Positions 2,507-14,226 of a stretch of DNA of 37,978 nucleotides are shown one piece after another. Every line of letters starts with the position of its first letter. The stretch's first letter is position 1. The position numbers and the translations under genes are program-made. The stretch covers positions 1 to 37,978 of the forward strand of contig CAIMUS010000185.1 of NCBI GenBank assembly GCA_903844665.1, written 5' to 3'. Below the pieces are notes generated by a model. That model had not been told where the DNA came from, ran no database searches, and saw only the letters and a list, made by a program, of their open reading frames with translations. The stretch is from an uncultured Pseudomonadota bacterium (GTDB taxonomy: Bacteria; Pseudomonadota; Gammaproteobacteria; Competibacterales; Competibacteraceae).

Positions 2507-3487
2507 ATGCAAGACCTGAACGTACCCACGACCACCCCATCGCTACCGGCCCAACCGATCGCCATCGGCGCCCTCAAACGCTTGAAAGTGCTGTGTATTT
2601 CTGAAGTCGGCTGGCTCGATAACGCCACCCTGCTGGCGGATATCCAAGCCGCCGGCGGCATGAGCGCCAATCAATATCGATTGCCCTGGCCACCGTTCGG
2701 CGAACTGCATGCCGGCAACGCGGCCGGTTCATCGGCGTTGATCGAAGCGGAAACAGCGGATGGCAAACTGCACCGGGTGCTGTTCGATACCGGCTGGAAT
2801 CCCGCCTGGATGGAGCGCCGCTTCGCCGAGGAAGGCGTGGACCGACTGTTGGAGGACGGCGCTATCGAGTGTCTCGTCATCAGTCACGAACACTTCGATC
2901 ATTTCTGGGGGATCGGCGTCACCCTGAAACACTGCCCGGCTATCCCAATCTATATCCCCGAAGGTTTTCACCAGGAGGGGCTGGACTTGATCAAGCAGTT
3001 CGGTCATACCGGCCCGGTCATCACGGTACCGGCCCAGCAGCCGATCGCACTGTTTCCCGGTTGTGCGCTGGTGCAGTTTCCCATGCAGACCTTGTTGCAG
3101 GTCCAGGGCGAGAACGTGCTGTACTTCGAGATTCAGAACAAGGGTTTGGCGATGGTGACCGGTTGTGGTCATGGCGGCGTCCTGAATCTGCTCGAGTACG
3201 CCCGGCGCACCTTTACCGGGGGCGAACGCCTGTACGCGGTGTATGGCGGTCTGCATATCGCGCCCTTCGAGGACTGGAACGCGGACAAAGACCGGCTGAT
3301 CGAAGCCCTGGCCGCCTATCGGATCGAGCACTTCGGCTGCAATCACTGCACCGGCGCGACGGCGGTGCAGAAAATGCTGGCCGCCGGTCTACCGGTGGTC
3401 AGAGGCAGCGCAAAGCACGGTTCCAAAACCAACTTGTTTCTCGGCAACGGCGATGTCCTGGAACTGTCGGCGGAGAAAGCTGCATAG
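2507..3487 (+). CDS. MBL-fold metallohydrolase (COG1237-like)
   Basis: A 326-residue metallo-beta-lactamase-fold protein. The metal site motif HEHFDH is at residues 127-132 (His127, His129, Asp131, His132). TGCGHGG follows near 220, and late YGGLH and GCNHCTG segments supply further ligands. The overall pattern (VLFDTG, then ISHEHFDHFWG, then TGCGHGGVLN, then the YGGLH block) fits the COG1237 group, which includes archaeal dihydropterin ribofuranosylaminobenzene phosphate synthase homologues and many uncharacterised bacterial hydrolases. The substrate is unknown. ATG at 2507 follows GAGGAAA at good spacing. There is no signal peptide, so it is probably cytoplasmic. It is convergent with the catalase gene and appears monocistronic. 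Confidence 0.85.
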   Translation: MQDLNVPTTTPSLPAQPIAIGALKRLKVLCISEVGWLDNATLLADIQAAGGMSANQYRLPWPPFGELHAGNAAGSSALIEAETADGKLHRVLFDTGWNPAWMERRFAEEGVDRLLEDGAIECLVISHEHFDHFWGIGVTLKHCPAIPIYIPEGFHQEGLDLIKQFGHTGPVITVPAQQPIALFPGCALVQFPMQTLLQVQGENVLYFEIQNKGLAMVTGCGHGGVLNLLEYARRTFTGGERLYAVYGGLHIAPFEDWNADKDRLIEALAAYRIEHFGCNHCTGATAVQKMLAAGLPVVRGSAKHGSKTNLFLGNGDVLELSAEKAA

Positions 3488-3532
3488 ATTGTTTCCTCCC
3501 GGCGGCTCAGGCCAGCCTATGACCTTATCCCT

Positions 3533-3745
3533 TCACACCGCGTCCGCTGGAACTGCGGTTGATGCTCCTGGATGCCGGATCCGTTCCTCGGCGCCGGGAT
3601 TATGGACCCAATACGGCGAGCGAACTTTGCCCGCCGTGACGGGGGGTGACCTCGATGCCGCTCCCGTGCAGGTCGGCGCGCAGGGCTTCCGTGAAACCCC
3701 GTAACGCCCAGCGGGCGGCAATCAACCCGGCCAAATCATCACTCA
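3533..3745 (-). pseudogene. short-chain dehydrogenase/reductase remnant, frameshifted
   Basis: On the minus strand one frame reads RWALRGFTEALRADLHGSGI, matching the segment just after the catalytic Lys of classical SDR enzymes (SKWALRGFTEALRAEL...). The reading then has to shift frame, at about 3640-3650, to continue as GKVRSPYWVHNPGAEERI, which resembles the next SDR block. The N-terminal Rossmann half, including the glycine-rich motif and catalytic Ser/Tyr, is missing. It abuts the catalase 3' end. This is a decayed gene fragment, not a functional reductase. Confidence 0.55.
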
Positions 3746-3754
3746 ACAGCTCGG

Positions 3755-5203
3755 TCAGCCTGCCTCACTCACCGCGATGCCCAGCGCCTTGGCGACGCCT
3801 TCGCCATAAGCCGGGTCGGCCTGCAGGCAATGGCGAATGTGGCGCAACTGGATCTCGCGTGGCGCCTCGCCGATCGAGCGCGCCGTATTCTCGAACAAGG
3901 CTTGCTGCTGTGCCGGGCTCATCAGACGGAACAGCGCGCCGGGTTGCGAGAAGTAGTCCGTGTCTTCGCGGTGGTTCCAGTGATCTGCGGCGCCCTCCAA
4001 ACTCAGCGGGGGCTCGCGGTAATCCGGCTGCTCGGCCCACTCGCCCTGGTCGTTAGGCTCGTAACCGAGCGTGCTGCCGTGGTTGCCGTCAACCCGCATG
4101 GCGCCGTCGCGGTGGTAACTGTGCACCGGGCAGCGTGGGGCATTCACCGGAATCAGGTGGTGATTGACGCCGAGCCGGTAGCGCTGCGCGTCACCGTAGG
4201 CGAACAGGCGGCCCTGCAGCATCTTGTCCGGCGAGAAGCTGATGCCGGGTGGCACGTTGGCCGGATTGAAGGCGGACTGCTCGACCTCGGCGAAGAAGTT
4301 TTCCGGATTGCGGTTCAGTTCCATCACGCCCACCTCGATCAGCGGATAGTCCTGGTGCGGCCAGATCTTGGTGAGGTCGAAGGGGTGATAGGGCGCCTTC
4401 GCGGCGTCGGCTTCAGGCATGATCTGCACTTTGAGCGTCCACTTCGGGAAGTCGCCCTTTTCGATGCTCTCGTAGAGGTCGCGCTGGTGGCTCTCGCGGT
4501 CCTTGCCGATGATCGCTTCGGCGTCGGCGTCGGTCAGGTTCCTGATGCCCTGTTGCGACTTGAAGTGGAACTTGACCCAGCAGCGCTCGTTCTTCGCGTT
4601 GATGAAGCTGAAGGTGTGGCTGCCGAAGCCATGCATGTGGCGGTAGGTCGCCGGGATGCCGCGGTCGCTCATGACGATGGTGATCTGGTGCAGTGCTTCG
4701 GGCAGCGAGGTCCAGAAGTCCCAGTTGTTCTTCGCGCTGCGCAGGTTGGTGCGCGGGTCGCGCTTGACCGCGTGGTTGAGGTCGGGGAACTTGAGCGGGT
4801 CGCGCAGGAAGAACACCGGCGTGTTGTTGCCGACCAGATCCCAGTTGCCTTCCTCGGTGTAGAACTTGACGGCGAAGCCCCGGATGTCGCGCTCGGCATC
4901 GGCTGCACCGCGTTCGCCGGCGACGGTGGTGAAACGGGCGAACAGCTCGGTCTTCCTGCCGAGCTGGGAGAATATTTTCGCCCGCGTGTACTCGGTGATG
5001 TCGTGCGTGACGGTGAAGGTGCCGTAGGCGCCGGAGCCCTTGGCATGCATGCGCCGCTCGGGAATCACCTCGCGGTCGAAGTGGGCGAGCTTTTCCAGGA
5101 ACCAGACATCCTGTAGCAACTGCGGGCCCCGTGGGCCGGCGGTCATCACGTTCTGGTTATCGACGACGGGACAGCCGGCATTGGTAGTGAGTTTCTTGCT
5201 CAT
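3755..5203 (-). CDS. katA: monofunctional heme catalase
   Basis: A 482-residue small-subunit catalase that converts hydrogen peroxide to water and oxygen in the cytoplasm. Distal His53 lies in [10 protein letters not shown], the distal Asn is in [11 protein letters not shown] (about 126), and the proximal heme-ligand Tyr336 is in [13 protein letters not shown]. The length and the C-terminus fit clade-3-type catalases. I chose ATG at 5203 ([10 protein letters not shown]) because AAGGATTA precedes it and homologues begin there; an upstream in-frame start would add 21 unlikely residues. No OxyR-type site was recognised. The gene stands alone apart from a doubtful small reading frame upstream. 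The symbol is a family name; katE-type numbering could also apply. Confidence 0.95.
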
Positions 5204-5240
5204 GTCTGTAATCCTTAGCCTGGTCGTGAGAGTTGATGGA

Positions 5241-5408
5241 TCAGCCGAATGAAGGGATGAGGGCAATCAGGTCCGACAACAACACGCCAGCGCCAAGTAA
5301 TGTGATGGCGATGCCCGCGACGAAACGGATCTTGTTCGCGAATCGACGGCCGGGAAGGGCGATGCTGGTGATCACCGGTTTCCTGGTAGCAGCAATCAAG
5401 TGGTTCAT
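5241..5408 (-). CDS. possible small membrane protein
   Basis: A 55-residue reading frame whose C-terminal half ([27 protein letters not shown]) would form one or two membrane segments after a basic stretch. It lies 37 bases upstream of the catalase start on the same strand. No clear ribosome-binding site precedes the ATG at 5408, and a longer TTG start at 5456 is possible. I recognise no family. It may be real or chance. Confidence 0.25.
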
Positions 5409-5508
5409 GGCGATTGCGGTGTGTCTTGTCGTAGCTATACATTCTAGCTTGACCAAATTAAAATTTAAGGTCTTCCTTGGCGCTACAGCGCCAGCCGGGG
5501 CCAGCCGG

Positions 5509-6156
5509 TCAGGGAATGTTCAGTATTTTTTGCAGTTGCAGGCTTAACCGCCATTGTGGATGCTCCAGGCAGTAACGCAGCGCCGCCAGGGTATTTTCCC
5601 GTAAACGGAGATCGTCCAGCGGCTGGAGGAAGAAATACTGAAAATCGAGGTGAACGAAGCGCTCCGGCTGGGATTGGGGCTCGACCTGGGGATAGACCAG
5701 CTTGAGTTCCTGTCCCTGCCGCAGCAGCAGGGGCGCTGTCGCCTTGGGACTGACGCAGATCCAGTTCAGGCCGGGAGGCGGTGGCCGGGTGCCGTTGGTC
5801 TCCACCGCGACTTCGAAGCCTTGGGCGTGCAGGGCCTCGATCAGAGGTTCGTCCAGTTGCAACAGCGGTTCGCCGCCGGTGCAGACCACATAGGGTTTGG
5901 CTTGAGGGAGCGCGGTCGCCGGCCAGCGGGTGGCGATCGCCGCGGCCAGTTCGGCGGCCGTCCGGAACTTGCCGCCGCCGCCGCCATCGACGCCGACGAA
6001 ATCGGTATCGCAGAACCGGCAGACGGCGGTGGCGCGGTGCGATTCCCGACCGCTCCAGAGGTTGCAGCCGGCGAAACGGCAAAACACCGTGGGCCGGCCG
6101 CTCTGCGCGCCCTCGCCTTGCAAGCTATAGAAGATTTCCTTGACCGAGTAAGTCAT
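5509..6156 (-). CDS. queE: 7-carboxy-7-deazaguanine synthase
   Basis: A 215-residue radical SAM enzyme of the queuosine/preQ0 pathway that rearranges 6-carboxytetrahydropterin into 7-carboxy-7-deazaguanine. The N-terminus MTYSVKEIFYSLQGEGAQSGRP is typical of QueE. The cluster-binding cysteines are Cys31, Cys46 and Cys49 (CX14CX2C, the expanded spacing seen in gammaproteobacterial QueE). CTGGEPLLQ follows near residue 110 as the SAM-contacting GGEP motif. The start codon is 3 bases after the stop of the three-domain QueD gene, so the two are surely co-transcribed with queC. Identification is firm. Confidence 0.95.
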   Translation of the reverse strand: MTYSVKEIFYSLQGEGAQSGRPTVFCRFAGCNLWSGRESHRATAVCRFCDTDFVGVDGGGGGKFRTAAELAAAIATRWPATALPQAKPYVVCTGGEPLLQLDEPLIEALHAQGFEVAVETNGTRPPPPGLNWICVSPKATAPLLLRQGQELKLVYPQVEPQSQPERFVHLDFQYFFLQPLDDLRLRENTLAALRYCLEHPQWRLSLQLQKILNIP

Positions 6157-6159
6157 CGC

Positions 6160-7254
6160 TCAGACCGGCAGGGCCGGGCCTTCGTCGCCCCAGCACAGCA
6201 TGGCCCCACAGCCGGGCGTCTGATAGAGGTCGATCCGGTCGAGGCGAGGCAGATGGGGTTGCAGGCGGTCGCGAATCCAGCGCGACACGGCGCCGGGATC
6301 GGTGTCGGCGAGTCCTTCCAGTCCATCCAGCCGGTGATGGTCCAGTTGTCGATACACCGGCTCGAACAGCGCTTTCACATCGCCGTAATCCACCGTCCAG
6401 CCCATGACCGCATCCAGCGGAGCGGTGAGGTGCAGGCGGAGCAGATAACTGTGGCCGTGCAGCCGGCGGCGGCGATTGGCAGGCGGCGCCTGACGCAGGC
6501 TCAGGGCGCTTTCAAAGCGCTGTTCCTTCCAGATCCGATAGCGCTGACCGTCGAAATGGCAGCCGGCGCTGACCGTTTCGTACACCGTCACCCAGGACAG
6601 GGACGGCAGTTCCGGCTTGAGGCGCCGCCAGAGCCAGGTCGCCAGGATCTCACTGGTCGGATTCTCCAGGCCGGGAAGATCGTTCAGGCAGGCGTGATGC
6701 AGTTCCGCCTGCAGCGGTGCCCAGAGCCTCTCCAAATGATCGAAGTCGATGCCCATGTCCAGCCCGTCCAGGTTCTGATCGGCATGCAGGATGACCTCGA
6801 AACCGTGGCCGTGCATCCGTCCGCATCGATGTCCCGGCGGGACCTTGGGCAAGCGATGGGCCGCCTCGAAGCGAAACCGCCGCCAGAGGTGGGCGTGCTC
6901 CCGTCCATCCAGGTCGGCGCCCTGATCGCGGGTGCTCTGGATGCCGACCTGTTCGATGCCCGGCGCGACCAGCCGCGCCCGCAGCCAGCGGGCCAGGTTC
7001 TCGTCGGTCGGCACGGGAAGATGATCGTTCAGCAGCGCGTAATCCAGCGGCGCGAGACACCCGGCAAGTTGCGCGGCCAGGGTGTCGGTTTCGGCGCCGG
7101 GAAACGGCGCCCAATCCATTGGCAACAATGCCCGGACCCGGGCCAGGAAGCTGTGCCCGTGCAACCGCCGGGCGCGATGGCCCGCCGGCAGAATGTCCAC
7201 CTGGCGCGCGGCCTCGAAGGGGGCCGCGGCCACCGTGTACAGGCGTTCTCTCAT
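6160..7254 (-). CDS. queD: three-domain QueD-like 6-carboxytetrahydropterin synthase
   Basis: A 364-residue protein made of three tandem PTPS/QueD domains (about 5-115, 120-238, 243-358), where ordinary QueD has one of about 120 residues. The middle domain is complete: [22 protein letters not shown] gives Zn ligands His133, His148 and His150 and nucleophile Cys144, followed by a catalytic His in LHHACLND and Glu226 in VYETVSAGC. The first domain has Arg17 for the first Zn His and Ala28 for the Cys. The third has Leu251, Arg262 and Gln345 for the His, Cys and Glu. Only the middle domain should be catalytic. The ATG overlaps the queC stop (ATGA), fixing the start at 7254. It makes 6-carboxytetrahydropterin for QueE. 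Confidence 0.9.
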
Positions 7255-7934
7255 GCCACGCCGCCTTTGAAGCGCTCCACCAGCGGATCGGCGATACCGG
7301 CCCCGGCAAAGCCCCTGGCCCGCAGGATGCAGGCGGGACATTCGCCACAGGGCGGTTGCCGGCCATGATAACAGGTGTGGGTATGGGCCAGCGCCGGCAG
7401 CGCGCCGAGATCGCGGGCCAGTTCCACCGTCTCTTTCTTGGTTTTGAACATCAAGGGCGTATGCAGGGTAAAGTCGAATTCCATCCCCAGGCGGAGCGCC
7501 TGCTCCAACGCTTTCAGGGTAGCTTCCCGGCAGTCAGGATAGCCGCTGTAATCGGTCTGCGCCATTCCGCCCACCAAGTGCTGGATACCCCGCGGGTAGG
7601 CGTAGGCCGCCGCGAAGGTGATAAAAATCAGATTGCGCCCCGGCACGAAGGTATTGGGCAACCGCGTCTTGGGGTCCAGTTCGCGTTGGACCGCCACCCC
7701 GCTGTCGGTCAGGGCGCTGCCGCCCAGGGCGGTGAAAGTATCGATGGGCAGTACGGTCTGCGGCACGCCGGCCAGGGCCGCCACGGTCGCGGCGCAGTCC
7801 AGTTCGATCCGGTGGCGCTGGCCGTAGTCGAAGGTCAGGGCGGTGACATGATCACGACCGAACCGCGCCAGCGCCCAGTACAGGCAGGTGGTGGAGTCCT
7901 GGCCGCCGGAAAGAATCACGAGGGATCGAGGCAT
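7251..7934 (-). CDS. queC: 7-cyano-7-deazaguanine (preQ0) synthase
   Basis: A 227-residue ATP-dependent enzyme that converts 7-carboxy-7-deazaguanine to preQ0. The PP-loop SGGQDSTTC is at residues 9-17. The C-terminal zinc site is [15 protein letters not shown], followed by [13 protein letters not shown], typical of QueC. ATG at 7934 is preferred over the upstream TTG because GGTGAG lies 7 bases before it and [11 protein letters not shown] is the normal N-terminus. It is the first of three overlapping or adjacent queuosine genes (queC, queD, queE) and lies 31 bases downstream of ubiX, so all four may be one transcript. Confidence 0.95.
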
Positions 7935-7965
7935 AGTCCAACTCACCAAGCAGCGGACCGTTCCA

Positions 7966-8577
7966 TCAGTTCTTGCCTGATCGATCGGCGGTTCTCTGAG
8001 AAATACCGATATCCTCGCCCCAGCGCTGGAGCATGCCGGTATCGATATCGAACAAATCCAGCACCCGGCAGACGGTATGGGTAACCATCTGGTCGATGGA
8101 TTGCGGTTGATGGTAGAACGCCGGCGCCGGCGGCATGACGATGGCGCCGGCCTCGGTGACCGTCAGCATGTTTCTCAGGTGGATGGCGTGCAACGGTGTC
8201 TCCCGCACCAGCAACACCAGCCGCCGGCGCTCTTTAAGCACCACATCGGCGGCGCGGGTCAACAGACTGCTACTGACGCCCGAGGCGATCTCCGCCAGCG
8301 TGCGCACCGAGCACGGCGCGATGACCATACCCATGGTCCGAAAGGAGCCGCTGGCAATGGCCGCGCCGATATCGCCGACTCGATAGCTGACCGTCGCCAG
8401 CGCGCGTAACTCCCGCGCCGATAGGTCAAGCTCGCAGGCCCGCGTCATCTCGGCCGCCCGCGATACGACCAGATGGGTGTCGACCTCGACCTCACGCAAC
8501 AGCTCGAGCAGACGGACACCATAAATGATCCCGCTGGCTCCACTGATGCCTACGATCAATCGTTGCCGCGCCTTCAT
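7966..8577 (-). CDS. ubiX: flavin prenyltransferase UbiX
   Basis: A 203-residue flavoprotein that attaches a dimethylallyl group to FMN to make the prenyl-FMN cofactor of UbiD decarboxylase in ubiquinone synthesis. The N-terminal [19 protein letters not shown] is the FMN-binding signature. [20 protein letters not shown] and a basic [20 protein letters not shown] segment (prenyl-phosphate binding) follow, then [17 protein letters not shown]. Full length for the family. No ubiD lies in the window. It is placed 31 bases upstream of queC. Confidence 0.95.
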
Positions 8578-8690
8578 ACCGATTCCGTGTTAGAGCCGTA
8601 CTGCATCATTTTCATCAATATTATATCATCATCTCATTATCCAAACCCGAAAACAACGAGCAATTCACTCACGCTTCATACCAACCACAA

Positions 8691-8744
8691 AAAACCACCA
8701 AAACCACCAAAACCACCAAAACCACCAAAACCACCAAAACCACC
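8691..8744. repeat. 9-bp tandem repeat, six units
   Basis: Six consecutive perfect copies of AAAACCACC lie between gloC and ubiX. The plus-strand translation would be a Lys-Pro-Pro repeat, but no gene there is credible. The 180-base gap has no other recognisable feature. The tract could vary in copy number by slippage. Confidence 0.9.
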
Positions 8745-8756
8745 TGACAGCGACTG

Positions 8757-9401
8757 CTACGCGAGCACCCGCTCACCCACAAACGGATTGGTGCGACGCT
8801 CCGCTCCAAACGTAGAGGTCGGCCCATGCCCTGGAATGAATTGTACATCGTCGCCGAGCGGCCAGAGCTGCTCGCGAATGGAGCGGATCAGCGTCGCATA
8901 GTCACCGCGCGGCAGGTCCGTGCGCCCGATCGAACCTTGAAACAAGACATCGCCGACGACAGCCAGACGGCTCTCGGGATGGAAGAAAATCACATGACCG
9001 GGGGTGTGACCGGGGCAATGTCGAACCTGAAGCTGAATATTGCCGAAAGCGACCGTATCGCCCTGCTTCAGCCAGCGGTCGGGCACGAACGGCCGGGCTT
9101 CCGGAAAACCGATCTGTTGGGCGCGGGTAGCCAGCAGATCGAGCCAAAACCGGTCTTCCTGATGTGGACCTTCAATCGGTACCTTCAACCGGTCCGCAAG
9201 TTCCCCGACACCACCGATATGATCAATGTGGCCATGAGTGATCAGAATTTTTTCGATATCGACCTTCACCTGATCCGCCGCGTGGAGAATCCGGTCGAGA
9301 TCGCCGCCCGGGTCCACGACCGCCGCCTTACCGGTTTCCTGGCAACACAGCAGCGAGCAGTTCTGGGCGAACGGAGTAACGGGAATGATAAACGCTTTCA
9401 T
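8757..9401 (-). CDS. gloC: MBL-fold hydrolase, YcbL/GloC-type glyoxalase II
   Basis: A 214-residue hydrolase close to E. coli YcbL (GloC), which hydrolyses S-lactoylglutathione in the methylglyoxal detoxification route. Motifs: THGHIDHIGG (metal site HxHxDH), HCPGHTPGHVIFF (His ligand), GDVLFQGSIGRTDLPRGD (bridging Asp) and FIPGHGPTSTFGAERRTNPF (last His). The start at 9401 gives MKAFIIPVTPFAQNCSLL, matching the YcbL N-terminus (IIPVTxFxQNCSL); the 34 residues upstream do not belong to the family. AAGG precedes the ATG at short spacing. The exact substrate is inferred from the family. Confidence 0.93.
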   Translation of the reverse strand: MKAFIIPVTPFAQNCSLLCCQETGKAAVVDPGGDLDRILHAADQVKVDIEKILITHGHIDHIGGVGELADRLKVPIEGPHQEDRFWLDLLATRAQQIGFPEARPFVPDRWLKQGDTVAFGNIQLQVRHCPGHTPGHVIFFHPESRLAVVGDVLFQGSIGRTDLPRGDYATLIRSIREQLWPLGDDVQFIPGHGPTSTFGAERRTNPFVGERVLA

Positions 9402-9614
9402 AGCCTTGCTGAAAATTGAAGCATTTCGACATCGAGGGTGGCGTTGTTCTCTCTGTCGAACAATATGGGGGTGGTTCAGCGTGCTTTCAAGGTCGGACCT
9501 CAACTTCCGGGAGCAGCGGCGGCATCACTCCCGCGTCATGCTGGCATACCGCCCCACAGCCGGCTGGTGCTCACCGCCCGGCCCTACGCCTGGTGCTGTG
9601 GGAGCGGCGTGACA

Positions 9615-9738
9615 CTGTAGGAGCGGCGCCCTCGCCGCGATTTTCGGGTCTCCACTGTGGGAGCGGCGCCCTCGCCGCGATCACTGGCCGCACCTGTGGC
9701 GCTACCGGGTTGATCGCGGCGAGGGCGCCGCTCCCATA
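9615..9738. repeat. REP-like GC-rich repeats, direct and inverted copies
   Basis: GGAGCGGCGCCCTCGCCGCG occurs at about 9620 and 9659 in direct orientation and once inverted near 9714-9733. The second and third copies form a long hairpin with about 27-base arms (9655-9683 and 9711-9738). This BIME-like cluster lies just upstream of the NACHT gene pair. A further copy lies at the 3' end of the NACHT gene. Confidence 0.85.
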
Positions 9739-9857
9739 GATTATTCTCATTAATTTTATACCTCTATCTACCTGTGTAAGCCTTCCCCAGTGGGATCGAG
9801 TAGTCTACGCTTATAGTTGAATCTACTTTTATTTTTCACCCGTGAGGAGGAATTGTT
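9739..9857 (+). promoter_or_regulatory. probable promoter/leader of the NACHT gene pair
   Basis: An AT-richer gap between the REP cluster and the first gene. TTTTATAC near 9752-9759 could be a -10-like element. Immediately before the start codon lies GAGGAGG, a strong ribosome-binding site (about 9842-9848). No operator palindrome was seen. Confidence 0.3.
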
Positions 9858-10337
9858 ATGACAGGCGAAAGTAAAGACAGCGGCGGTACTATCAGTACTG
9901 GTGGCGGCGCTTATATTGGCGGGCGCGTCAAAGTCGGCGGCGATTTCGTCGGCCGGGACAAAGTGGTCACTGCCGGCGCAGGAGGTGTAGCCGTGGGAGG
10001 CAATGTCACCGGCGGCGCCATCGTGACCGGCAGTGGCAATATCATCAGCCAACCGCAGGGCGCTACCCTGGAAGACCTCCGCGCTCTGATCGCGGAATTA
10101 GGCCGGCTGCTACCGCAAGCCAGCCTGAACCCGGATGTAGCCGAGATGATCGAGGGCGATTACCAAGTGGTGAAGAAGCAGGCCGAGAGCGCTACACCCA
10201 ATGGCGGCATCGTCAAGACCAAGCTGAAAAGCGTGCTGGAGCTGCTGACCAGTTCGGGCAACGCGGCGGGCGCCGTGGAGAAAATCCTGTCAATCGGCAC
10301 GAAAGCGGCGCAGGTGGCGGGATTGCTGTTTCCTTGA
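9858..10337 (+). CDS. small glycine-rich partner of the NACHT protein
   Basis: A 159-residue protein in two parts. Residues 1-65 are a Gly/Val-rich repeat-like region (GGAYIGGRVKVGGDFVGRDKV, then VAVGGNVTGGAIVTG), probably a beta-roll. Residues 70-159 look alpha-helical (LEDLRALIAELGRLL, KLKSVLELLTSSG, GAVEKILSIGTKAAQVAGLL) and resemble helical tails in proteins next to bacterial NACHT/STAND NTPases. The GGDFVGRDK motif recurs as GHDFIGRDK near the N-terminus of the next gene, 23 bases downstream, which suggests a physical or evolutionary partnership. A strong GAGGAGG precedes the ATG. No enzyme motif is visible. I infer an adaptor or effector-associated role in an immune-type module; the molecular function is unknown. 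Confidence 0.8.
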   Translation: MTGESKDSGGTISTGGGAYIGGRVKVGGDFVGRDKVVTAGAGGVAVGGNVTGGAIVTGSGNIISQPQGATLEDLRALIAELGRLLPQASLNPDVAEMIEGDYQVVKKQAESATPNGGIVKTKLKSVLELLTSSGNAAGAVEKILSIGTKAAQVAGLLFP

Positions 10338-10360
10338 AAACAAACGTACGGTGAATTGTT

Positions 10361-13339
10361 ATGGACTCCCAGCCATCGAAAATAGCCAAACTTCAGGAAC
10401 AGCTTCGCGACCTGGAGAAAGTACGCCCGGTGCTGGGCGACGCCCTCACCGACCAGAAGAAAGCCGAACTGGAAGCTCGCCTGCAACCACTGCTGCACAC
10501 GGGTGGCGGTGCTGTCGTTGGCGGTGGTGTCACCGTTGGCCATGATTTTATCGGCAGAGATAAACATGAACATCACTACCACCGTGGTGAAGACCCGGCC
10601 ACCCTTCGACAAGCGGAAACCGCCTACCGCCAGAACCTCGCCAATCACTGTGACACCCTGCCACTGCGAGGAGTAGACCCGACACCCGGCGAGGGCGCCA
10701 CGGGACGGCAGCCGCTCAGCCTGGCGCAGGTTTACATCGCCCTGGACACCCAACGCCGCGCGCCGGCAACGGTCATTGCCCAGGCACTGCACCAGGCCGC
10801 CCAAGGCCAGTTGAACGGCCTGTCAGCGGCATCTTCCCCCGCTACAGCCGGTCGCGACGAAGACACCCGGCCGCTCGCCGCCCTGGAAGCGGCGATTGTG
10901 CACCGTAACTGGGTGCTGCTGGGCAAACCGGGTTCCGGCAAAAGCACCTTCGTCAATTACCTGACCCATGCCCTGGCGGTGCGCGCCTGGGAGCACCTGC
11001 CGGGCTGGCCGGAGCAGGAACGGGACGCGCTGCCGATTCAGGTGATCCTGCGCGACTTCGCCCGCTGGCTGGCCACGCAACAGCCCCTGCCGTCGGCCTG
11101 CCCGGAACTGCTGTGGCGCTTTATTACCCACGAATTGCAACAGCGCAAATTGGAACACGCCACCAAGGTCGTGGGGCAGGCGCTGGATCAGCCTGGCCGC
11201 GCGGTCGTGCTGCTGGACGGACTGGACGAAGTGCCGCCGGACGACGACCGGCTGCTGGCGCTGGTGCGGGACAGCGTGGCGGCCTTCGCCAAGCGTTACC
11301 ACCACAGCCGTCACCTGGTCACCTGCCGGGTGCTGTCCTACCAGGAACCCGGTTGGCAACTGCCGGCGGACCTGTTCCCGGCGCTGGAACTGGCGCCGTT
11401 CAACGCCGACCAGATCGACCGCTTTATCGGCGCCTGGTATACCGAAGTCGGCGTCAAATGGCAGCTGCCACCCGGTGACGCCGACCGGTTGGCGAACAAA
11501 CTACGCCAAGCCGTGCGCCGACCGAGCTTATGGAAACTGGCACCTAACCCGCTGCTGCTCACCGTCATGGCGATGGTACACACCCGTCGCAATGAACTGC
11601 CGGAACAGCGGGCGCTGCTCTATCAGAACGCCGTTGATATCCTGCTCGAACACTGGGAGCAGCAAAAAGAAGACGTCGAGGCGACGCCACCGCTGCGCGA
11701 TCTGCTGGCCGAGGTCGATCGGGACTTCAACGATCTCAAGGACATCCTGGAACGGCTGGCCTACACCACCCTGGACCAGACAGGCGCCACGCCGGACAGC
11801 GAGGATAGCGCCGACCTGCACGAATACGACCTGCTCCAGGAACTGAGAACCCTCCATCCCCGGCGCAGCTACGACTGGGCCGAACACGTGTTGGACACGC
11901 TGCATCTGCGCTCCAGCCTGTTGCTGGCGCGTACCGGAAAAGTGTTCGGTTTTCCTCATCGCACCTTCCAGGAATATCTGGCGGGCGTTCATCTGGCGCG
12001 GCTGCCGGACTTTGAGCAGGCTGCCGCCCAACGGGCCGAAGCGGCGGCGTTCTGGCGCGAGGTTATCCTGCTGGCGGTCGGCTATCTGGTCCACCAGAAC
12101 CGGGATCTGGGCAAACCTCGGCTACTGGTGGAAGAACTCTGTCCCGACCGCTCCCCGCCGAGCGACAGCGCCTGGCGCCAAGTCTGGCTGGCCGGCGAGG
12201 TGCTGCTGGAAGTGGGCCTCAACCGCATCCAGGACAGCGCCCACGGCAAAAGTTTGTTAGAACGGGTCCGCCGGCGGCTGACCGAACTGGTGGAAACCGG
12301 CGCCCTGTCCGCCCGCGAACGCGCCGAAGCGGGTGATGTGCTGGGGCAACTCGGCGATCCGCGTTTCGACCCCACTCGGTTCTATCTACCCTGCACGTAC
12401 CGGGGCCAGCCAGAGCCGCTGGCCGGCTTTATCGAAATCCCGCCGGGGCCGTTTGTGATGGGGAGTCAGGAAGGTGACAAGGATGCCTGGGAGGATAAAT
12501 CTGGCAACCCGGCAATGCTTACCACAGACTATCGCTACTGGCTGGCCCGCTATCCGGTGACGGTGGCGCAATTCCAGTGTTTCATCGAGGCGGGTGGCTA
12601 TGAAGACTCCGCTTGGTGGACGCCCACCGGTTGGTCCTGGCGGCAGGGGCAATGGGACAACCAGGTTGAAGAGGATTGGTTGCGAGATCGTTTGCGAAGC
12701 CGCCCTGTGGAACTACGCCAGGCTCCCATGGAGTGGAATGTCCAGCGTGCTTATCCCAACCGGCCGGTGGTCAATGTCTGCTGGTTCGAGGCGATGGCCT
12801 ACTGCCGCTGGCTGGAGGCGCAGGTGAAAGCGGCTCAGGTCCTGCCACTGCCGGACGGCTATGGTCTCCGCCTGCCAACGGAAGCGGAATGGGAGAAAGC
12901 GGCCCGGTGTGGGGATGCGCGTCGTTATCCCTGGGGTGATGAAGACTGGGACGAGACCCGGGCTAATATCGCACCCAGCGACATCGGCCATCCTACACCG
13001 GTAGGGATGTATCCGTTGGGGGTGACGCCGACCACGGAACTGCATGACCTCAGCGGCAATGTCTGGGAATGGACCCTGAGCCGGTACCAACCATACCCTT
13101 ATGATCCCAAGGATGGCCGGAACGATCCCGAAGCCGAGGGTTGGCCCGTCGTGCGGGGCGGCTCCTGGCTCAATCATCTGGGGTTTGCGCGCGCCGCGTC
13201 GCGTGACAGGTCTCCCCCCGACTCCTGGGATGCCAACAGCGGGTTTCGGGTGGTGTTGTCCCGCTCCTACAGCGCCGCTCCCACAGTGTTGATCGCGGCG
13301 AGGGCGCCGCTCCCACAGCGGGCTGATAATTTGCTTTAA
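10361..13339 (+). CDS. NACHT NTPase with C-terminal FGE-sulfatase domain
   Basis: A 992-residue STAND-type protein. Order: short coiled coil (5-45); Gly-rich GHDFIGRDK motif (about 60-68); helical linker with YRQNLANHCDTLPLRGVD (89-106), typical of NACHT-SUMF1 proteins; NACHT domain with Walker A GKPGSGKST (188-196) and Walker B VVLLDGLDEVP (282-292); winged-helix/helical region to about 680, including FPHRTFQEYLAG; FGE/SUMF1-like domain (about 685-968) with RLPTEAEWEKAAR, NVWEW, RGGSW and GFRVVLSR. The cysteines of true formylglycine-generating enzymes are absent after RGGSW, so this domain is probably a ligand sensor. The last 24 residues are translated from a REP repeat. Families like this are predicted NTP-dependent conflict systems. 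An antiphage role is inference. Confidence 0.9.
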   Translation: MDSQPSKIAKLQEQLRDLEKVRPVLGDALTDQKKAELEARLQPLLHTGGGAVVGGGVTVGHDFIGRDKHEHHYHRGEDPATLRQAETAYRQNLANHCDTLPLRGVDPTPGEGATGRQPLSLAQVYIALDTQRRAPATVIAQALHQAAQGQLNGLSAASSPATAGRDEDTRPLAALEAAIVHRNWVLLGKPGSGKSTFVNYLTHALAVRAWEHLPGWPEQERDALPIQVILRDFARWLATQQPLPSACPELLWRFITHELQQRKLEHATKVVGQALDQPGRAVVLLDGLDEVPPDDDRLLALVRDSVAAFAKRYHHSRHLVTCRVLSYQEPGWQLPADLFPALELAPFNADQIDRFIGAWYTEVGVKWQLPPGDADRLANKLRQAVRRPSLWKLAPNPLLLTVMAMVHTRRNELPEQRALLYQNAVDILLEHWEQQKEDVEATPPLRDLLAEVDRDFNDLKDILERLAYTTLDQTGATPDSEDSADLHEYDLLQELRTLHPRRSYDWAEHVLDTLHLRSSLLLARTGKVFGFPHRTFQEYLAGVHLARLPDFEQAAAQRAEAAAFWREVILLAVGYLVHQNRDLGKPRLLVEELCPDRSPPSDSAWRQVWLAGEVLLEVGLNRIQDSAHGKSLLERVRRRLTELVETGALSARERAEAGDVLGQLGDPRFDPTRFYLPCTYRGQPEPLAGFIEIPPGPFVMGSQEGDKDAWEDKSGNPAMLTTDYRYWLARYPVTVAQFQCFIEAGGYEDSAWWTPTGWSWRQGQWDNQVEEDWLRDRLRSRPVELRQAPMEWNVQRAYPNRPVVNVCWFEAMAYCRWLEAQVKAAQVLPLPDGYGLRLPTEAEWEKAARCGDARRYPWGDEDWDETRANIAPSDIGHPTPVGMYPLGVTPTTELHDLSGNVWEWTLSRYQPYPYDPKDGRNDPEAEGWPVVRGGSWLNHLGFARAASRDRSPPDSWDANSGFRVVLSRSYSAAPTVLIAARAPLPQRADNLL
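13262..13318. repeat. REP-like repeat overlapping the NACHT gene 3' end
   Basis: A further inverted-orientation copy of the GC-rich repeat seen at 9615-9738 lies at 13289-13318, preceded by a partial copy (13262-13284). It is translated as the C-terminal tail of the NACHT-FGE protein. REP copies thus bracket the two-gene unit. Confidence 0.8.
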
Positions 13340-13494
13340 ACTGATTGGCATGAACATGATTAGTGGGGAGTCGCGTCCGTACAACGGCCGGCCAAATACT
13401 GAACCGCCCCCGCGTCCTGTCGCCTGGCGGCACGGCGCGGGGGCGCCCTGCAAGGATTTGGTGAATATTGAAATGCCTGACTTGGGAGGTGAAC

Positions 13495-13704
13495 ATGACT
13501 GCCAAAGAAATCCTCCTGCGCGAAGCGGAACGGTTACCCGAACCGCTGGCCCGGGAAGTTCTCGATTTCCTTGTGTTTCTTCGAGAGCGGAGCGGCCATG
13601 AAACAGTGGGAACTACTGACGATACCCTGGCTTACCGGATTGCCCACCCCTGGAAAGTGGCGGACTTCAAGCCCCTGAGCCGCGATGCCGCCCATGAGCG
13701 CTAA
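13495..13704 (+). CDS. antitoxin, DUF2281/VapB-like
   Basis: A 69-residue protein, MTAKEILLREAERLPEPLARE, then VLDFLVFLRER, matching the short antitoxin family (DUF2281-like) that begins with a 'LPExxxxEVLDFVxFL' helix. The C-terminus ends PWKVADFKPLSRDAAHER. ATG at 13495 follows GGGAGGTG at ideal spacing; an upstream in-frame ATG at 13468 lacks one. Its 3' end overlaps the PIN-toxin gene by 20 bases, typical of TA operons. It should bind and inhibit the toxin and may autoregulate the operon. Confidence 0.85.
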   Translation: MTAKEILLREAERLPEPLAREVLDFLVFLRERSGHETVGTTDDTLAYRIAHPWKVADFKPLSRDAAHER

Positions 13705-14119
13705 GCGCTTCATCGATACCAATATCTGGCTCTATGCCTTGTTTGAACCCGCCGGAGACGAAGTAGAAAAGCAGCGGCTGGCCGCCAGACTGACGCTGGA
13801 GGAAACCGCCACAGCTATCAGTGAACAGGTGATTGCCGAGGTTTGTTCCAATCTGTTGCGTCGAAAAACGTGCGCCGAGAGTGAACTGATCGGCTACGTT
13901 ACGAGCTTCTACCGCCGTTGCGAAGTCATCGCGCCTGGCCTGACACTGCATCGGTCCGCCAGCAATCTACGGCAGCGCTACCATTTCAGCTACTGGGACA
14001 GTCTCATCGTGGCGGCTGCCCTGCAGTCCAACTGCGGTGTTCTCTACACGGAAGATCTCCACCACGGCTTACGGATCGAACCCTTGGAAATCGTCAATCC
14101 CTTTCGCCAAGGGCAGTAA
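13685..14119 (+). CDS. PIN-domain toxin (VapC-like)
   Basis: A 144-residue PIN-domain predicted RNase. Acidic metal ligands are visible: Asp11 in KRFIDTNIWLYAL, a Glu in EVCSNLL (about residue 55), Asp in YWDSLIVAAAL (about residue 104) and TEDLHHG near 119. MSAKRF (13694) is an alternative start three codons in. The pair sits immediately downstream of the NACHT-FGE gene and upstream of a scrap of another FGE gene, which suggests it was inserted in, or replaced part of, an older array. Unlike the PIN toxin at 244-708, the first Asp is intact. Confidence 0.9.
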   Translation: MPPMSAKRFIDTNIWLYALFEPAGDEVEKQRLAARLTLEETATAISEQVIAEVCSNLLRRKTCAESELIGYVTSFYRRCEVIAPGLTLHRSASNLRQRYHFSYWDSLIVAAALQSNCGVLYTEDLHHGLRIEPLEIVNPFRQGQ

Positions 14120-14136: not shown

Positions 14137-14226
14137 TACGCGTCGCGTGCCCGCAATCCCACCGACGGCTGGGTTGTCGACGGCGGGTTTCGGGTGGTGT
14201 TGTCCCTGGCGAATTCTGATTTCTGA
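14137..14226 (+). pseudogene. 3' remnant of an FGE-sulfatase-domain gene
   Basis: The frame reads YASRARNPTDGWVVDGGF and continues to RVVLS and a TGA stop at 14226. This matches the last segment of the FGE domain in the NACHT protein (about 13197-13257). The 24 bases encoding GFRVVLS are nearly identical, while the bases before differ at many positions. An in-frame stop lies just upstream, so only the tail of a second gene remains. Confidence 0.65.

Follow-up and report, generated by a model that had tools for sequence, protein, structure and literature searches.

A NACHT–FGE gene and a small helical partner sharing a glycine-rich motif in a Competibacteraceae genome: a putative sensor–partner pair

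Described systems and the window locus

The closest described relatives of the gene pair considered here are the STAND NTPase-FGS conflict systems, in which effectors are coupled through effector-associated domains (EADs) and an association with diversity-generating retroelements (DGRs) is frequent (Kaur et al. 2021, PMC8195603, accessible part of the paper). The pair lies on a 37,978-nucleotide contig (C185) of the draft genome of an uncultured Competibacteraceae bacterium (4.88 Mb, 98.9% complete, 348 contigs); this whole contig is hereafter called the window. A gene for a small helical protein is directly followed by a gene for a NACHT NTPase with a C-terminal domain of the FGE fold, and both proteins carry a Gly-rich stretch of 24 residues, labelled the B motif in this analysis. 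On balance, it appears probable from sequence comparison that the NACHT–FGE protein is a STAND sensor recruiting the small protein through this shared motif, with the four-helix bundle of the latter as the terminal output, and that the sensor is derived from a DGR target. The pair looks like an immune-like self-destruct switch whose two parts are joined by a shared tag.

As far as the accessible text of Kaur et al. goes, the window has in common with these systems a central STAND NTPase and a C-terminal FGS (FGE) lectin-fold domain, and loci of the window type also share with them a neighbouring gene with the same N-terminal module, caspase and TIR partners, and an association with DGRs. The window departs from them in that the shared module is the Gly-rich motif of about 24 residues in place of EADs or bDLDs, neither of which matched a window protein at E ≤ 1 in Pfam, and in that the partner has no catalytic domain. 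Also related are the NACHT–C-type lectin (NACHT–CLec) proteins of multicellular bacteria, which are diversified by DGRs and have been proposed as antigen sensors (Dore et al. 2024, PMC10907252); according to the accessible part of this paper, the variable repeat (VR) of such targets is located at the 3′ end of the FGE gene, and many DGR targets have N-terminal extensions lacking characterised domains. The window resembles these sensors in the combination of NACHT with an FGE-type CLec domain, in the presumed two-target organisation of the locus, and in an N-terminal extension without known domains. No such short motif is named in the accessible part of that paper, and, unlike the sensors it describes, the window has no template repeat (TR) or reverse transcriptase (RT) at the locus, just a second VR-like 3′ end.

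A further parallel is provided by bacterial amyloid signalling sequences (BASS), of which BASS1–10, together with Bell effectors, were reportedly described by Dyrka and colleagues in 2020. As in the window, a NOD-like receptor (NLR) and an adjacent small helical partner have one short motif in common in BASS/Bell pairs (PMC7889193 and PMC8086366, accessible parts). However, the motif of the window partner occupies residues 12–35 of 159 and is followed by the helical domain, which is the reverse of the Bell–BASS order given in the accessible part of PMC7889193, and neither of the two published peptides that were compared is like the window proteins.

The shared motif and its recurrence

The B motifs of the two proteins align without gaps, with 16 of 24 residues identical and a score of 88, and end in GDFVGRDK and HDFIGRDK, respectively. 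When both local regions were shuffled, none of 5000 trials reached this score (best 65), and the best scores in 2000 trials each were 57 for the shuffled small protein and 54 for its shuffled Gly-rich N-terminus. The preliminary description of this locus was thus right that a motif is shared, although the stretch is longer than it claimed. In the NACHT protein, a short helical N-terminus (helices within residues 7–41 in the model) precedes the motif. A four-sequence profile search of the window's genome retrieved only these two genes at E ≤ 1e-3, while a search with the single small protein also matched a gene on contig C255 (9.9e-4) via the adjoining Gly-rich segment (residues 28–104). The hidden Markov model (HMM) of the motif was seeded with sequences drawn from the collected loci, including the small protein itself. 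The strings FVGRDK, TGGGAYIGG, GGDFVGRD, and VNTGGG were not found in literature text, nor was GRDK in the 12 papers listed for it, a search that left subscription journals, figures, and supplements uncovered; we could not find the coupling motif described in the literature searched, in terms of which the pair would be a STAND-FGS/DGR conflict system with a novel coupling motif.

Related loci, designated here by numbers with the prefix L, were gathered by searches with the small protein or the four-sequence profile, with the helical domain, with the NACHT region alone, and within the window's genome. The NACHT-region query offers a less biased view of pairing than a tally of loci collected through the motif. 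Among 40 genomes of the order it retrieved, besides the window, only two homologues with more than 50% identity (57% and 58%), and both have the small gene directly upstream, contrary to the consistent lack of this gene that the preliminary description had considered as grounds against a coupled pair. The next homologue, with 47% identity, is a TIR-like fusion that bears the B motif. The two-gene unit of the window recurs in L054 and L055 (Competibacteraceae) and in L150 (Anaerolineae), and in L149 (Thiodictyon) the small gene comes after the NACHT gene. Overall, neighbouring motif pairs were found in Competibacteraceae, Thiodictyon, Rhodocyclaceae/Accumulibacter, and Chloroflexota.

The set used for a tally of pairing comprised 65 loci after the removal of contained duplicates (a few overlaps remain), with 46 open reading frames (ORFs) carrying the B motif at E < 1e-3. 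L082 and L105 represent the same gene and were counted once, and the small gene of L151 is broken. L073 was dropped as a sensor, the P-loop-like string falling within an EAD7 match, and L149 was dropped from the tally, its motif ORF (3974–4525) and NACHT ORF (4368–6968) being in different frames. The TIR-like and caspase labels of the tally denote short string patterns, assigned for L056 and L158 without a Pfam scan. A P-loop is present in 20 B-motif proteins, of which 10 have a separate B-motif partner (the window, L054, L055 at 8743–11643, L053, L067, L070, L072, L150, and both sensors of L152), four contain an effector-like domain of their own (TIR-like in L055 at 2560–5913, L105, and L158; caspase in L155), and six have neither (L086, L154, L156, L157, and two in L160). 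For five of the latter six, the available sequence stops 0.3 kb or less from the gene on one side. In the L155 protein (6140–10297), a single chain of 1385 aa arranged as caspase–motif–NACHT–FGE, the caspase, NACHT, and FGE domains were identified by Pfam and the Gly-rich motifs are of two kinds; its gene is a DGR target.

Caspase domains (PF00656) were detected on B-motif proteins of L053 (4.5e-16), L070 (3.6e-17), and L069 (5.9e-15), as well as L155, and TIR_2/DUF4062-like domains, all under the curated cut-offs, in L053, L055, L067, L072, and L082. The B-motif protein of L068 has EAD1 and a sub-threshold transglutaminase-like match, and that of L073 has EAD7. The NTPases bearing the motif also differ, including NACHT, nSTAND1 (L070), and NB-ARC (L072) proteins; such constancy of the motif while effector and NTPase vary points to adaptor-like behaviour. 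The motif is nearly invariant at the GG-A, G-V, and GRD positions in the 20 copies of 10 pairs, and similarity is higher among cognate than among non-cognate motifs (0.660 and 0.615, respectively; 10 pairs, p 0.006 by permutation), an excess that is slight and was calculated with the kinship of the loci uncontrolled. The recurrent pairs, the fusions, and the variety of NTPases are in line with the proposal of the preliminary description that the motif joins the partner to the sensor, which would so far be a comparative argument, no structure lending support to it. Its suggestion of a new killing mechanism is not supported, since the same motif is present on caspase and TIR-like proteins of relatives; on these grounds, the general output is probably a known cell-death chemistry.

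The two proteins and retroelement traces

Both ORFs have the boundaries given in the preliminary description and are separated by 23 bases on one strand, and its assignment of NACHT and C-terminal FGE domains was confirmed by Pfam. The features of the locus are listed in Table 1. The NACHT–FGE protein has a STAND-clade NTPase domain with both Walker motifs intact. Its FGE domain gave profile matches in the PDB to FGE, EgtB, and Treponema denticola variable protein 1 (2y3c, 2.5e-14), while the NCBIfam equivalog models SenA, EgtB, OvoA, and PvdO scored far below their cut-offs. By inspection by eye, the C-terminal segment RGGSWLNHLGFARAASRDRSPPDSWDANSGFRVV holds no Cys; the active-site cysteines of human FGE, which we take to be Cys336/341, lie in the C-terminal segment. 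In the structure model of this protein, the NACHT domain and helices are confident and the FGE part is not.

Table 1. Coordinates of the features of the gene pair and its surroundings in the window.
Feature	Position	Strand	Description	Evidence
Small partner gene	9858..10337	+	159 aa; N-terminal B motif, Gly-rich segment, C-terminal four-helix bundle	ORF, homologues, AlphaFold2
B motif in small protein	9891..9962	+	Residues 12–35, ISTGGGAYIGGRVKVGGDFVGRDK	Local alignment, shuffles; motif HMM 2.5e-13
Second Gly-rich segment	9963..10055	+	Residues 36–66, AGAGGVAVGGN type	Resembles A motif of paralogous NACHT–FGE pairs; low AlphaFold2 confidence
Four-helix bundle	10068..10328	+	Residues 71–157	AlphaFold2, 4 sequences, block pLDDT 77–93
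NACHT–FGE sensor gene	10361..13339	+	992 aa	ORF; Pfam NACHT and FGE-sulfatase
B motif in NACHT protein	10493..10564	+	Residues 45–68, LHTGGGAVVGGGVTVGHDFIGRDK	Local alignment, shuffles, motif HMM
NACHT domain	10910..11437	+	Residues 184–359	Pfam PF05729, 31.4 bits (cut-off 26.7)
Walker A GKPGSGKST	10922..10948	+	Residues 188–196	G188, P190, G191, G193, K194, T196 invariant in 8 aligned sensors
Walker B region DGLDE	11216..11230	+	Residues 286–290	D286, L288, E290 invariant in 8 aligned sensors
FGE / C-type-lectin-fold domain	12422..13255	+	Residues 688–965	Pfam PF03781 FGE-sulfatase, 2e-49
VR-like segment 1	13195..13262	+	FGE C-terminus of NACHT–FGE gene; frame then enters REP-like repeat	82% identical to 14139–14206
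REP-like repeat	13283..13318		Forms last codons of NACHT–FGE gene	
VR-like segment 2	14139..14226	+	3′ end of second FGE gene, reads ASRARNPTDGWVVDGGFRVVLSLANSDF then stop	

At E ≤ 1, the small protein was matched by neither Pfam nor NCBIfam models, and its profile matched none of the solved structures (best E 0.85). Its N-terminal 66 residues, including the B motif, are unstructured in the monomer model, with a block predicted local distance difference test (pLDDT) score of 30–36 that may merely reflect the shallow alignment of four sequences. They are followed by a predicted four-helix bundle (helices at residues 71–87, 92–110, 116–132, and 139–157). No PDB match to the bundle fold was found by Foldseek at E ≤ 0.001. 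The VIA-align rows with Z of 12 to 11 comprise S23 proteins, the DGR accessory protein Avd, invertase inhibitors, and designed bundles, and a Z below about 13 may reflect merely an arrangement common in helical bundles. A DGR-accessory (Avd) role of the bundle was rejected, the domain being also fused to caspase and AbiTii proteins. A C-terminal helical domain is a likeness to the PADLOC PDC-M14B and AbiTii proteins, the PDC-M14B model matching weakly (best 3.6e-6) and over part of its length (residues 46–145 against positions 156–257 of 267); unlike these proteins, the window pair matched neither AbiTii nor, at E ≤ 1, M14A. Other B-motif partners end in TCAD2 (PF19971; 6.2e-13 in L065 and 5.6e-9 in L076), an assignment rejected for the window bundle, which had no TCAD2 match at E ≤ 1 and a probability of 0.4% in a profile comparison with the TCAD2-type partners.

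Small genes consisting of the B motif and the bundle stand alone in five loci from two phyla (the window, L054, L055, L149, and L150), which indicates a stable form and not a one-off relic. In L053, the window's helical domain forms the C-terminal part of a caspase protein, behind the caspase and the B motif; a similar helical region occupies the same place in L070, beside an nSTAND1 protein, and in L118 an AbiTii domain is followed by a bundle of the window type. The bundle was found in one gene only of the window's genome at E ≤ 1e-5. Including the genome on which each search was centred (G000 or G590), the counts of genomes with a match were 2 of 398 for the helical domain in a sample from across the phylum, 5 of 40 (the order) and 5 of 400 (the phylum of G590) for the motif-plus-helical profile, and, at E ≤ 0.01, 9 of 190 relatives for the small protein as a single query. 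No relatives of the small protein were found in plasmids, and none were confirmed among 37 pattern matches in viral contigs.

The window's genome contains a second pair of a NACHT–FGE gene and a small gene, located on C255 (L034, 9502–12324 and 12391–12867) and carrying a different Gly-rich motif (GEGAVAQGPGAVAAGKGG and GSGGVAQGNSAVAAGAGG, respectively). The label "A motif" is used in this analysis for segments of the GxGAxAQG..AGxGGVAVGG type, which are present in L034, L058, L059, L053, and L056.

The connection to DGRs, like the bundle and the VR-like remnant at 14139–14206, was absent from the preliminary description. A strict scan of 10 loci (60 bases, no mismatches outside template adenines, and at least 8 at adenines) revealed nine TR/VR pairs in five of them (L053, L069, L152, L160, and L155), whereas the same scan on template cytosines gave no pairs in any of the 10. 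DGR-type variation in these five loci is confined to template adenines in the FGE C-terminus, and the VRs of related loci sit at the 3′ ends of FGE genes, a placement also noted for STAND-FGS systems (PMC8195603). No TR/VR pair was found by the strict scan in the window, L054, L055, L149, or L150. Looser scans (up to 2 or 4 non-adenine mismatches) also yielded ordinary repeats and VR–VR and TR–TR rows, and only rows without non-adenine mismatches were counted.

In the window itself, a second VR-like segment lies 0.9 kb downstream, beyond an intervening DUF2281-like/PIN gene pair, and encodes a C-terminus (..VVVSLANSEF) of the type seen in FGE genes of L053 and L055. Over 68 bases, the two segments differ at 12 positions, all within 13206–13238 and 11 in the first or second position of a codon, and the flanks are identical; no template was found. 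The second FGE 3′ end, its DGR-like differences, and the run of the reading frame into a REP-like repeat suggest a decayed two-target array, in which the second target gene and the DGR would have been lost and the sensor would now be fixed.

Four DGR cassettes are present elsewhere in the genome (L038–L041 on C10, C333, C96, and C114) with their own TR/VR pairs, differing at 10 to 18 template adenines and at no other positions; none matches the window VR, and the one on C333 adjoins a NACHT homologue with 37% identity. The window FGE as a current DGR target was rejected for this assembly, as none of the genome's DGRs has a TR for its VR. An RT match on C195 resembles the RT of a group II intron in its sequence (QGGPLSPLL, YADD), and fragments on C36 and C248 share the YADD region.

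Interpretation of the pair and its surroundings

STAND proteins bind a ligand, oligomerise in a nucleotide-dependent manner, and activate a clustered N-terminal partner, and the explanation we prefer follows from this background and the anatomy of the pair. At rest, the NACHT–FGE protein would wait with its C-terminal FGE domain as the ligand sensor; upon ligand binding, the NACHT domain would take ATP and oligomerise, bringing together the Gly-rich motifs of about 24 residues near the sensor N-termini. This cluster would recruit the N-terminal motif of the small protein and co-assemble with it, presumably through motif–motif contact, and the four-helix bundle would thereby be activated, giving a helical, possibly membrane- or assembly-acting output. 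The FGE sensor would be descended from a DGR-diversified array and fixed after the loss of the DGR and the second target. We infer an immune role for the pair. The partner has helices only and no enzyme domain, and, since no other gene of the genome has the motif (E ≤ 1e-3) or the bundle (E ≤ 1e-5), we consider it probable that the small protein is the terminal component rather than a link to some third motif-bearing protein.

A number of observations weigh against this explanation. The pairing tally is biased upward because the motif and the small protein were themselves the route to most of the loci, and only 9 of the 24 B-motif ORFs without an NTPase adjoin a B-motif NTPase in the same locus. 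The first sensor of L160 is surrounded by 11.4 kb of upstream and 5.1 kb of downstream sequence in which the sole other B-motif gene is the second sensor. The motif genes of L056 and L069 and the TIR-like gene of L053 adjoin NACHT proteins bearing the A motif only, and those of L076 and L153 adjoin tetratricopeptide repeat (TPR) proteins, with no NTPase seen. Given the mismatch between window-type and TCAD2-type partners, the small partners do not form a single family. None of the helices of the bundle is strongly hydrophobic (mean hydrophobicity of the last helix 0.35), which makes a membrane role a guess, and the occurrence of the bundle behind caspase and AbiTii domains in relatives is more in keeping with an assembly module than with a toxin. 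The second Gly-rich segment of the small protein resembles the A motif on the C255 proteins of the same genome, a likeness possibly reflecting contact with a third party, and the single caspase gene found in the genome, unlinked on contig C319, could be the executioner via contacts invisible in sequence. The comparison of cognate with non-cognate motifs, for its part, leaves kinship uncontrolled. As for the origin of the sensor, DNA search and template-adenine scan of the draft assembly revealed neither a TR nor an RT that matches the window FGE, the looser scan gave no TR in L034, L056, L070, L072, L154, or L156, and one of the 12 VR mismatches (G/C, third codon position) does not agree with the AAY template prediction.

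Several other explanations should be considered. The motif might be a bacterial amyloid signalling sequence outside BASS1–10, in which case clustered NACHT N-termini would nucleate a cross-beta fibre joined by the motif of the small protein, with the helical domain exposed or inserted as in HET-s/HeLo and BASS/Bell. This attractive idea, a special form of the preferred explanation and not its opposite, is in our view rather doubtful. BASS are described in a like layout, an NLR adjoined by a partner with which it shares a short motif, and are found with CHAT and TIR partners as well (PMC7889193, accessible part), and the motif region is unstructured and of low confidence in the monomer model. 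Moreover, a distant relative, L165, carries FDQRGQQIRGDQYNASRD (residues 372–389 of a 594-aa ORF at 190–1974, caspase-like by eye and with a C-terminus of the helical type), which matches a Methanothrix NLR peptide with a score of 55 reached by none of 1000 shuffles; this peptide was shown to aggregate and stained with Congo red (PMC8086366, accessible part). However, the best match of the window proteins to the two published peptides, that of the small protein, has a score of 30, reached by 56 of 1000 shuffles, L163, L164, and L166 likewise match neither peptide, and BASS motifs are C-terminal on the effector, in contrast to the N-terminal motif of the window partner. It is about equally doubtful that the small protein is an assembly adaptor, a motif-plus-bundle linker bridging the NACHT oligomer to an executioner elsewhere, such as the unlinked caspase, or the remnant of a caspase–motif–bundle protein that has lost its N-terminal enzyme. 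An enzyme can indeed precede the bundle, as illustrated by L053, L070, and L118, and a caspase gene is available on C319, but the stand-alone motif–bundle genes of five loci in two phyla speak for a form of its own, and the searches of the window's genome retrieved no second gene with the motif outside the pair (E ≤ 1e-3) or with the bundle (E ≤ 1e-5).

We regard it as improbable that the motif is just a flexible or self-assembling, homo-oligomerising Gly-rich beta linker reused in conflict proteins without cross-talk. Gly-rich segments of the A type are common in these families, cognate motifs are only slightly more similar than non-cognate ones, and 15 of the 24 motif ORFs without an NTPase have no adjoining B-motif NTPase in the available sequence; against a plain spacer speak the substitution of fusion and adjacency for each other and the near-invariance of the GG-A, G-V, and GRD positions in 20 copies. 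Quite improbable is an antitoxin-like inhibitor that caps the NACHT N-termini until infection. Gene order is the sole point in its favour, many toxin–antitoxin pairs likewise having the smaller gene first, and the caspase or TIR-like effectors that homologous partners bear at the same motif fit activation rather than inhibition.

If recruitment through the B motif is correct, the motif would be a short, concrete coupling element for DGR-diversified NACHT–lectin sensors, and homologous loci would name the likely executioners, caspase and TIR-like proteins. A bolder generalisation, which is speculative and more likely wrong than right, is that an undescribed prion-like motif family couples DGR-hypermutated NACHT–lectin sensors to interchangeable executioners (caspase, TIR-like, and four-helix) in aggregate-forming Proteobacteria and Chloroflexota, which would constitute a pathway combining an adaptive sensor, an amyloid relay, and cell death; if the motif is amyloid-like, a single bacterial pathway would bring together hypermutated sensing and prion-type signalling. 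The minimal two-gene form found in the window (159 aa and 992 aa, no DGR) is small enough for a transfer to E. coli.

In L055 (5949–8246), L076 (4316–6832), and L153 (7349–9571), representing two phyla, a TPR protein is encoded directly upstream of the small motif gene, and the N-termini of these proteins are, by eye, apparently membrane-spanning; the TPR protein is possibly a second type of partner. In the window, the pair is flanked by palindromic repeats resembling repetitive extragenic palindromic (REP) elements (GCGGCGAGGGCGCCGCTCCCA), located upstream at 9613–9641, 9653–9681, and 9704–9739 and at the end of the NACHT–FGE gene at 13283–13318. The DUF2281-like gene (25.1 bits, cut-off 26.5) and the PIN-domain gene at 13468–14119 are probably a toxin–antitoxin pair.

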